Made by a program: the position numbers and the translations under genes. Positions 147 to 26,605 of a DNA stretch of 64,000 bases are shown one piece after another. Source of the DNA: Sphingomicrobium sp. (GTDB taxonomy: Bacteria > Pseudomonadota > Alphaproteobacteria > Sphingomonadales > Sphingomonadaceae); NCBI GenBank assembly GCA_036563485.1, contig DATCMI010000001.1, positions 2,233,501 to 2,297,500 of the forward strand, given 5' to 3'. The notes under the pieces are model-generated. The model was not told where the DNA came from and did not search any database. It was given only the letters and a program-made list of their open reading frames with translations. Within the stretch, counting starts at the first letter, position 1, and each line of letters starts with the position of its first letter.

Positions 147-899
147 TTAAGCGACCGCAGCTTCCATCGGCGGTTCGGCCATGGAGCCGATGTCCTCGCC
201 ACGAGCCGCGGCATTGCCGCTGCGCCCTTCCATCGCCGCCTGGGCAATGGAGTCGGTGTAGAGGCGGATCGCGCGGCTGGCGTCGTCATTGCCCGGGATC
301 GGGAAAGAGATGCCGCTCGGGTCGCTGTTCGAATCGAGGATCGCGACGACCGGGATGCCGAGCGTGTTGGCTTCCTTGATCGCCAGCTCTTCCTTGTTGG
401 TGTCAACGACGAACATGACGTCCGGCAGGCCGCCCATGTCGCGAATGCCGCCGAGGCTCTTTTCGAGCTTGTCACGCTCGCGAGTGAGCTGGAGGACTTC
501 CTTCTTGGTCAGGCCGGCGGTGTCACCCGACAACTGCTCTTCAAGGCTCTTGAGGCGCTTGATCGAGTTGGAGATCGTCTTCCAGTTGGTCAGCATGCCG
601 CCGAGCCAGCGGTGATTGACGAAGTGCTGATTCGACTGGCGCGCGGCTTCCGCGATCGCGTCCTGCGCCTGCCGCTTGGTGCCGACGAACAGCACCTTGC
701 CGCCGCGGGCGACGGTCTGCTGGACGAAGTCGAGCGCGCGAGCGAACAGCGGAACGCTCTGCGACAGGTCGATGATGTGCACCCCGTTACGATCGCCGAA
801 AATATACGGCTTCATCTTGGGGTTCCAGCGGTGGGTCTGGTGGCCGAAGTGCGCTCCGGCTTCGAGCAATTGCTGCATCGTGACGACGGTGGTCGCCAT
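147..899 (-). CDS. rpsB: 30S ribosomal protein S2
   Basis: The 250-residue product is full length for bacterial S2. The N-terminal part carries the family signatures [19 protein letters not shown] and [13 protein letters not shown], and the central part has FVGTKRQAQ and [12 protein letters not shown] short Ala/Glu-rich tail follows. S2 binds the 30S head late in assembly and helps recruit S1. An AAGGAG-type Shine-Dalgarno lies just before the ATG. The gene is transcribed away from a structured leader (905-985) and a probable promoter (993-1021), and is followed by tsf. Confidence 0.98.
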
Positions 900-992: not shown

Positions 993-1021
993 CCCCTAGC
1001 CGAACTTTCCCGCACTTTCAA
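993..1021 (-). promoter_or_regulatory. Probable housekeeping promoter of rpsB
   Basis: On the minus strand TTGAAA (1016-1021) is separated by 17 nt from TAGGGG (993-998), a reasonable RpoD-type arrangement for a high-GC alphaproteobacterium. It places the transcript start near 985, directly before the structured leader. Confidence 0.4.
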
Positions 1022-1049: not shown

Positions 1050-1078
1050 TTGACAGGTGAGAACATAACAGGAACATT
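1050..1078 (+). promoter_or_regulatory. LexA (SOS) operator in a promoter
   Basis: GAAC (1061-1064), 7 nt, GAAC (1072-1075) matches the alphaproteobacterial LexA box GTTC-N7-GTTC read on the other strand. It lies immediately after a perfect -35 hexamer TTGACA (1050-1055), in the spacer where bound LexA would block RNA polymerase. A weak -10 (AACATT) follows at 1073. The only gene downstream on this strand is the small membrane protein at 1164. Confidence 0.7.
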
Positions 1079-1163
1079 GTTTCGTATCAACGGAGCGCCG
1101 CAGGGCTCGTCCGGAACAAATCAGGTCCGGCCGGGTTGGCGCTCAAAAGTAAGGACAGATGCG

Positions 1164-1382
1164 ATGATGGCAGCAATCGGCACCCTCGTCTTCCTTGGCA
1201 CCCTGTGGCTGATGGTGGTCGTGGGTGCAGCGGTTCTTGAGGAGAGCGGGGCGAAGATCGCCGCCGCCCTCAAGGGCAAGCCTGCCGCGCCGAAGGCGGC
1301 CTTCGTTCCGGTACGTATTCGCACTCGCACGCGGATCCAGCAGCCGATGCGCGCTAGCGCGAAATGGCGCGCCGCCGCTTGA
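1164..1382 (+). CDS. Small single-span membrane protein under LexA control
   Basis: The 72-residue product has one hydrophobic segment at about residues 5-24 (LVFLGTLWLMVVVGAAV). A short acidic turn and a basic, Pro/Arg-rich tail ending KWRAAA follow. AAGGA ends 8 nt before the chosen ATG. I recognise no named family. Because the promoter carries a LexA box, the protein should be made on DNA damage. The known alphaproteobacterial precedent for a tiny SOS-induced membrane protein is SidA of Caulobacter (29 residues), which blocks division. The same role here is inference from size, topology and regulation, not homology. The 3' end overlaps pssA tail to tail by 29 bp. Confidence 0.75.
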   Translation: MMAAIGTLVFLGTLWLMVVVGAAVLEESGAKIAAALKGKPAAPKAAFVPVRIRTRTRIQQPMRASAKWRAAA

Positions 1383-2112
1383 CCTTCGCATAGCTCGTCA
1401 TCGCGACGGGGATCATCAACAGATAGAGCGCTGAGACGCCGAGAAGCGTCACCCACGGCGCGGTCAGCAGTGCCGCGCCGAGCACCGCGACACCGGCCAG
1501 TGCGAACAGCCGCCATTCGCGGCGGATCCTGATCGAAGACCAGCTATAGGTCGGCAGGCTCGAGATCATCAGCGTGGCGACGAAGAGCGTCCACGGCATG
1601 ACCAGGTACCACGCCCTGAACAGGTCGATGCCGGTCACCAGCCACAGGAAAATTGGGACGAACGCGATCCCCGCCCCTGCCGGCGCCGGAACGCCGGTGT
1701 TGAAGCCGGCTGATTTGTGCGGCTGTTCGGCGGCGTCGATCCGCGCGTTGAACCGCGCGAGGCGGAGCGCGCAGCATACCGCCAGCGCAAGCGCCGCCGT
1801 CCATCCGAATTTCGGGGCGAACTGAAGCGACCACAGGAAAAGGACGAGGGCCGGCGCGGTCCCGAACGCGATATTGTCGGCCAGCGAGTCCAGCTCCGCC
1901 CCGAACTTGCTCTGCGCCCGCAGCAGCCGGGCGATGCGCCCGTCCATGCCGTCGAGAACGCCGGCAAGGACGATTGCGCCCAACGCCTTCTCCCACTCAT
2001 CGCCGATTGCGAAGCGGACGCCCGTCAGTCCCATGCACAAGGCGAGCGCGGTAATCGCATTCGGGATCATCGCGCGGAAGGAGATCCCGCGCGGCCCGCT
2101 GTCGTCGTTCAC
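1354..2112 (-). CDS. pssA: CDP-diacylglycerol-serine O-phosphatidyltransferase
   Basis: This integral membrane enzyme makes phosphatidylserine from CDP-diacylglycerol and serine. The CDP-alcohol phosphotransferase signature DG-x2-AR-x8-G-x3-D-x3-D is complete at about residues 57-79 (DGRIAR...GAELDSLAD). Several hydrophobic segments follow. The start is a GTG whose bases overlap the psd stop (GTGA at 2109-2112), indicating translational coupling. psd makes the substrate-product partner, so the pair forms the phosphatidylethanolamine pathway. Length (252 residues) fits the multi-span subclass II enzyme. Confidence 0.95.
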
Positions 2113-26580: not shown

Positions 26581-26605
26581 GGAACAGATGAAGAACATCG
26601 GCGTT
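26581..26605 (+). promoter_or_regulatory. EcfG-type general stress promoter of the DUF3072 gene
   Basis: GGAAC (26581-26585), 16 nt, CGTT (26602-26605) is an exact EcfG match beginning 2 nt after the ald stop codon. It places the start of transcription near 26612, about 28 nt before the DUF3072 ATG. Confidence 0.75.

Follow-up and report, generated by a model that had tools for sequence, protein, structure and literature searches.

A small gene behind a LexA operator

The window analysed here is a stretch of 64,000 nucleotides from a Sphingomicrobium sp. genome (GenBank assembly GCA_036563485.1, contig DATCMI010000001.1, positions 2,233,501 to 2,297,500 of the forward strand). Close to its start, a small gene of 72 codons, predicted to encode a single-span membrane protein, lies behind a TTGACA hexamer and an exact LexA operator of the form GAAC-N7-GAAC (GAACATAACAGGAAC), the two separated by five bases. 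The preliminary description of this DNA had reported this arrangement at 1050-1382, together with a ribosome-binding site, and had read the gene as an SOS gene and a candidate division inhibitor. The arrangement is confirmed, and the SOS reading stands in that the operator is conserved. What the reading overlooked is a second promoter of the EcfG type, associated with the general stress response, which lies between operator and gene and recurs in 34 of 48 leaders from the same genus. Because of this promoter, the small gene appears not to be limited to DNA damage in the majority of the genus members read, and its predicted joint control by LexA and EcfG is the fact that the present analysis adds. 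The gene is flanked by a divergent neighbour, which we take from its translation to be rpsB, and by a convergent pssA (Table 1).

Table 1. Features of the small-gene locus, numbered by position in the window
Feature	Position	Strand	Basis
-35 hexamer TTGACA of the SOS promoter	1050..1055	+	Sequence; TTGAC near the box in orthologues
LexA operator GAACATAACAGGAAC, between the -35 and the presumed -10	1061..1075	+	Conservation; motif shared with SOS genes of the same genome
Presumed -10 AACATT, 17 bases after TTGACA, overlapping the operator	1073..1078	+	Position only, inferred
EcfG-type (general stress response) promoter GGAAC-N16-GGTT, between operator and gene	1113..1137	+	Leader counts, nepR likeness, published consensus
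Ribosome-binding site AAGGA	1151..1155	+	Sequence; similar purine runs in orthologues
Small gene, 72 codons, 72-amino-acid single-span membrane protein (predicted)	1164..1382	+	Open reading frame, homologue profile, hydropathy
Membrane segment, codons 7-25 (predicted)	1182..1238	+	Hydropathy; inside AlphaFold2 helix 2-37
Last three codons, Ala-Ala-Ala, antisense to pssA codons here	1371..1379	+	Possible protease-recognition tail; degron role inferred
pssA, convergent, 29-bp overlap with the 3' end of the small gene	1354..2112	-	Pfam PF01066, PF08009
rpsB (presumed), divergent upstream neighbour	147..899	-	Name from its translation; synteny in most loci read
Possible rpsB promoter TTGAAA ... 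TAG, clear of the operator	996..1021	-	Similar element in other loci

Conservation of the LexA operator

Against chance in the 64-kb window alone, GAAC-N7-GAAC is not significant, with two sites against 2.08 expected; the genome as a whole has 66 occurrences, compared with 42 of a reversed control pattern. At the small gene itself, the box lies at most 220 bp upstream in all 54 homologous loci, where the genome density would give about 0.003 per region. Control stretches of the same length hold no box in 53 cases taken downstream of the open reading frame (ORF) and none in 52 cases taken 680-900 bp upstream, which are mostly rpsB coding sequence. The 54 loci do not represent 54 independent events because they are related; among them, the seven spacer bases differ widely and both GAAC blocks are constant. 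A later set of loci from other genera, picked regardless of the box, has it in 20 of 20. The preliminary description had staked its reading on the operator being present in orthologous promoters, and both sets keep it throughout.

The promoter context is conserved to a lesser extent, with TTGAC 3-6 bases ahead of a box in 51 of the 54 orthologous loci and directly ahead of one in only 10 of the 20 later loci. When homologues are instead located through rpsB, the exact box is present at 13 of 15. It also remains with the small gene apart from rpsB, both at L133, where rpsB is 1.1 kb away, and at L165 and L166, where the stretch contains no rpsB. Taken by itself, LexA control of the small gene is very highly probable from this sequence pattern.

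These counts come from a defined set of loci. The genus has 67 genomes with a match, and promoters were read in 48. Eight loci were dropped as duplicates within a genome (L016, L018, L019, L021 and L023-L026), two as presumed chance matches (L028 and L029) and one as the second fragment of the G036 locus (L030). The later set comprises 20 of the 33 matches from an order-wide search with a 27-member profile that had not yet been assigned a locus.

Variation around the operator takes several forms. Two or more boxes occur in 22 of the 54 orthologous loci, such as L067 and L064, with spacings of mostly 25, 34-36 or 85 bp, which suggests cooperative repression in some clades. In six loci of genus g41 (L154, L158, L161, L167, L168 and L169), the box is kept with no TTGAC just ahead of it and no overlap between the small gene and pssA. 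The sole other exact box in the window, GAACAGATGAAGAAC at 26581-26605, overlaps a GGAAC-N16-CGTT match and is probably a chance occurrence.

An EcfG-type promoter between operator and gene

Leaders running from the operator to the start codon fall into two length classes among the 48 genus loci, 35 being long (83-94 bp) and 13 short (26-54 bp). Searching them for GGAAC-Nk-GTT with k from 8 to 26 returns k=17 in 32 leaders and k=18 in two, with every other spacing at 0 or 1; shuffled leaders give expectations of 0.09 and 0.05, or 0.14 together. The element is present in 34 of the 35 long leaders and in none of the 13 short ones. One short-leader locus, L087, has a match that overlaps its box and lies outside the leader as defined. 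In other genera, the element is found at k=17 or 18 in 11 of 19 leaders against about 0.05 expected, and the peak at 17-18 is sharp in both sets with all spacings counted; the later set has the element in 10 of 20 leaders.

In the genome of the window, nepR carries the same GGAAC-N16-GGTT upstream. The published EcfG consensus is described as GGAAC-N16-CGTT, with GGTT as a natural -10 variant named for Sphingopyxis granuli (PMC7083833). Six other LexA-box loci of this genome, recA, lexA, imuA and uvrA among them, have no EcfG-type match. NepR (PF18557) is found in this genome and in every one of the 30 genus genomes tested, the 13 short-leader genomes being part of that set; some of the matches include a stop codon. 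A PhyR-like ORF, read by eye, adjoins nepR in the genome of the window, and the presence of the NepR/PhyR/EcfG system is judged from these two. The idea that the element was lost because the system was lost is rejected, given NepR in all 30 genomes. At L121 the arrangement is reversed, with the EcfG-type element kept and no exact LexA box.

With an operator and an EcfG-type promoter both upstream, the small gene looks driven by SOS and by general stress, and EcfG input is likely wherever the element exists. It shares its GGAAC-N16-GGTT promoter with the general stress regulon of sphingomonads and differs from that regulon in having a LexA operator. We know of no general-stress gene with such an operator, and a literature search of titles and abstract openings on LexA, EcfG, the general stress response and SOS returned none on such a gene.

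LexA boxes elsewhere in the genome

GAAC-N7-GAAC also lies upstream of lexA, recA, uvrA, imuA and rmuC in the genome of the window. The lexA gene is confirmed by PF01726, and the other four names are those that we presume from the translations. LexA itself is found in 21 of 21 genomes tested. The LexA motif of Caulobacter is described as GTTC-N7-GTTC, the reverse complement of the box found here (PMC12700426).

Scored with a matrix made from the small-gene orthologues, which was applied to 51 of the 66 genome sites, the small gene reaches 34.6 bits, followed by imuA (30.3), uvrA (21.2), lexA (15.1), rmuC (11.6) and recA (10.8); because the matrix was built from its orthologues, the top rank of the small gene is partly by construction. 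Some sites without an obvious SOS gene reach 21 bits. Two other boxes stand near genes named by eye, one of 33.7 bits near a radical-SAM (SplB/PA0069-like) gene (L103, G000:C1:2163541) and one of 26.2 bits, 184 bp ahead of an L,D-transpeptidase-like gene (L101, G000:C1:1703853).

Coding capacity and distribution of the gene

Conservation shows the small ORF to be protein-coding: most profile matches are open frames across the full profile and, outside the pssA overlap, change was greatest at third codon positions in all 11 close pairs compared. Among changed codons, non-synonymous changes outnumber synonymous ones in nine of the 11 pairs; the small protein therefore evolves fast.

A profile of 27 homologues (E <=0.01) matches 67 of 71 genus genomes, a few of the matches being weak or containing stop codons (for example G012, with E 0.0023, and G063). 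Every one of the 53 high-quality genus genomes (>=90% complete, <=5% contaminated) has a match. The name used here for the genus, the Sphingomicrobium group, is taken from those members that bear names: Sphingomonas segetis, S. hankyongi and one Sphingomicrobium metagenome-assembled genome. Across the order, the 27-member profile matches 62 of 396 genomes and a 38-member profile 137 of 396; with the latter, 22 of 84 sampled genera are positive, and every listed positive belongs to the family of the window. Across the class, two of 385 genomes match, the genome of the window itself and one in which the frame is doubtful and contains stops; since the class-wide profile also missed family members that bear the gene, its absence from other families is not firmly established. 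Anchoring on rpsB in 29 loci recovers a homologue in 15 of 20 family loci, one of them 1.1 kb off (L133), and the nine loci of other families yield neither a box at distances up to 1,200 bp nor any convincing homologue.

Searches of plasmid and phage sequences return no match to the small gene, and the protein has none in Pfam, PHROGs or solved structures. NCBIfam gives one weak match, in one of 29 members (E 0.0092), judged to be chance, and Rfam has no match at 700-1700. The same kind of literature search, with subscription papers and preprints outside its scope, returned no paper on the small gene. Judged from the genomes sampled, the gene appears to belong to the core of the sphingomonad family, as a stress gene specific to that lineage. 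In one AT-rich genome (G141, locus L117), the gene is tandemly duplicated, the two copies lying some 344 and 948 bp past rpsB. The exact LexA box (GAACAAAACATGAAC) is confined to the second copy, and both copies end in EAA.

Predicted features of the protein

The single membrane span and basic tail given in the preliminary description are borne out by hydropathy: the protein has one hydrophobic segment, residues 7-25, with a mean Kyte-Doolittle value of 2.38, followed by a tail whose net charge is +9. All 54 members are 67-79 amino acids long and have one N-terminal hydrophobic segment, with a second span in none by hydropathy; 52 of the 54 carry no net charge ahead of the segment, and tail charge has a median of +6 and a range of 0 to +10. 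An AlphaFold2 model made with four sequences predicts a helix at residues 2-37 followed by a low-confidence tail (mean predicted local distance difference test score 65.7). Under the positive-inside rule, by which the positively charged part of a membrane protein is cytoplasmic, the tail is predicted to face the cytoplasm. The protein is thus probably one N-terminal membrane helix with a disordered basic tail in the cytoplasm, and its predicted location is the inner membrane. Within the genus, conservation is best in the last residues and in a stretch, AALxG, that directly follows the hydrophobic segment where the predicted helix ends.

The C-terminus is AA in 52 of 54 members and VA in two. 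Such an -AA end suits a ClpXP-type degron, and we infer that it may be a proteolysis signal. In all 53 loci for which it was measured, the ORF shares 29-116 bp with the 3' end of pssA, and this antisense overlap weakens the -RAAA end as proof of a degron. The idea is partly rescued by six of 28 further loci in which there is no overlap, where the protein ends in AA at five loci and in TA at the sixth, as well as by the EAA ends of the two copies in AT-rich G141, beside which no pssA is found within 1.5 kb.

A candidate division brake and its alternatives

By analogy with known systems, the small protein may be a division brake under dual control by LexA and EcfG, a reading to which we assign a probability of roughly 0.45. 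LexA bound at GAAC-N7-GAAC would block the sigma-70 promoter until DNA damage releases it, and the downstream EcfG-type promoter, with its conserved spacing, would allow general stress acting through PhyR-NepR-EcfG to turn the gene on without DNA damage. The product is predicted to be a single-pass inner-membrane protein with its N-terminus out and an arginine-rich tail in. Its helix might pack on a late divisome protein (FtsW, FtsI or FtsN), delaying division or septal wall synthesis, and proteolysis via the conserved -AA end could then clear it. The division-inhibitor class is favoured by the length of the protein, the core distribution and stable locus of the gene, and the absence of SulA (PF03846; 0 matches in the genome of the window, with a positive E. 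coli control). Other roles would also be compatible with the inward tail and the general-stress promoter.

Small membrane proteins known to be induced by damage are of two kinds, division inhibitors and depolarising toxins. SidA (29 amino acids), YneA and SosA are division inhibitors under SOS, DidA is one that acts outside SOS, and DinQ and TisB are SOS-controlled depolarising toxins. The damage-induced division inhibitors of alphaproteobacteria known to us, SidA and DidA, all come from Caulobacter, and we know of no general-stress promoter for sidA. The small protein matches SidA, DidA, YneA and SosA only in general design, that of a tiny single-span SOS membrane protein. SidA, an alphaproteobacterial, tiny inner-membrane protein described as LexA-repressed via GTTC-N7-GTTC (PMC12700426), resembles the predicted product here in all these respects; the SOS promoter of sidA is strong and early, and that of the small gene has a consensus -35, whereas a division role is established for SidA and is proposed by analogy for the small protein. 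DidA is described as damage-induced, 71 amino acids long, with a single predicted span and acting on FtsN (PMC4211646). In contrast, the tail of the small protein is predicted to be cytoplasmic and its control is apparently by LexA. The Gram-positive proteins YneA, SosA and ChiZ are likewise small SOS-induced membrane proteins; YneA and ChiZ differ in having a LysM domain, which lies outside in YneA and was not found in the small protein, whose predicted orientation is also opposite to that of YneA. The YneA helix is described as binding transmembrane segment 7 of FtsW and YneA as rapidly degraded (PMC13396833), and YneA, SidA and DidA together as small membrane proteins acting on FtsW, FtsI or FtsN (PMC13396833, PMC4211646).

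Several points weigh against the proposed brake. No computed result here bears on division directly, and protein sequences from different genera show weak conservation. Leaders that lack the EcfG-type element number 14 of 48 in the genus and 8 of 19 and 10 of 20 elsewhere, and two of the 15 homologues anchored by rpsB have no exact LexA box (L121 and the first tandem copy at L117). The recA, rmuC and lexA boxes score just 10.8-15.1 bits, no better than several sites that have no obvious SOS gene. Finally, conservation of the C-terminus is confounded, because this end mostly overlaps antisense codons of pssA.

Two alternatives keep the dual regulation and change the activity of the product. One takes the basic tail as the working part, with the protein as a membrane anchor that would bind the nucleoid, the ribosome, an anionic lipid or an enzyme (PssA, for instance) and so tune envelope or nucleoid state during stress. 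Nearly all the charge of the protein sits in this tail, predicted to lie inside; the genus AALxG stretch is better conserved than most of the hydrophobic segment; and the gene usually adjacent, pssA, serves to make a precursor of phospholipids. Such a role is nevertheless somewhat doubtful, with a tail sequence that is highly variable and a proximity to pssA that is a tail-to-tail overlap rather than an operon. The other alternative, which we consider unlikely, is a protein of growth arrest or persistence that would act by depolarising the inner membrane in the manner of DinQ and TisB, which are also LexA-controlled small membrane proteins. E. coli DinQ is described as an SOS-controlled, 27-amino-acid single-span toxin that depolarises the membrane and is controlled by an antisense RNA (PMC3567139). 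The small protein is similarly small, hydrophobic and apparently SOS-controlled, and general stress control would suit a dormancy protein, but it has 72 residues and a basic tail against 27 residues for DinQ, and Rfam reveals no known RNA family at its locus, although an unannotated antisense RNA would escape that search. Its presence in all good genus genomes is not patchy, and plasmids and phages contain no match.

The remaining alternatives set the protein aside. Stress transcription could run into the 3' end of pssA and repress it by convergent or antisense transcription, in keeping with the overlap in 53 loci and with a nearest plus-strand terminator-like site, at 1693-1710, that lies within pssA. 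We regard this as very improbable: the overlap is absent from six of the 28 further loci, no pssA is found in 1.5 kb beside the copies in G141, and conservation extends to the frame, the start, the membrane span and the length, none of which an antisense RNA would need. The operator might instead belong to the divergent rpsB, with the small ORF incidental, since the box lies between both genes and a minus-strand sequence resembling a sigma-70 promoter (9 of 12) overlaps it. This assignment has a negligible chance of being right and is rejected: the box stays with the small gene at L133, L165 and L166, TTGAC and its spacing point toward the small gene, and a separate rpsB-promoter-like element nearer rpsB is found by a strict pattern in 23 of 52 loci, overlapping the box in none of the 23.

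As a candidate division brake, the small gene offers a concrete and conserved starting point for sphingomonad division arrest, with a precise promoter anatomy and with clades lacking one of the two promoters as natural controls. The literature searches, judged by titles and abstract openings, returned no paper on division arrest after DNA damage in sphingomonads. If the proposal is true, the SOS and general stress responses would be directly linked at a single membrane protein. Even if the product is no division inhibitor, an SOS-type gene present in 53 of 53 good genus genomes and belonging to no curated family marks an annotation gap.

A LexA box upstream of mraZ

Outside the window, the same genome has a box (L044, G000:C1:487936) upstream of a gene that we take to be mraZ, with which the division and cell-wall cluster begins. 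GAAC-N7-GAAC recurs at the same place in 14 of 20 genus loci (L170-L189; 13 of 19 genomes), 274-283 bp before the KGR motif of MraZ and with differing spacers, and is missing in L173, L176 and L185-L188. Binding of LexA in vitro upstream of a gut-bacterial mraZ homologue is described (PMC3998124). LexA may also act on the division cluster in this genus, and the box at mraZ therefore indirectly favours the division idea of the preliminary description. More tentatively, a single sphingomonad membrane checkpoint could join the otherwise separate LexA and EcfG alarms, which would make it the first brake on division or growth known to us to be wired to both, with the mraZ box as a second arm that adjusts the division cluster. 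The mraZ box lies just after TTATCCACA, presumably a DnaA box, which is present in all 21 aligned sequences including that of the genome studied here, and is followed by TCCCA repeats that we take to resemble MraZ sites. The gene ahead of the box looks co-directional in the three loci inspected.
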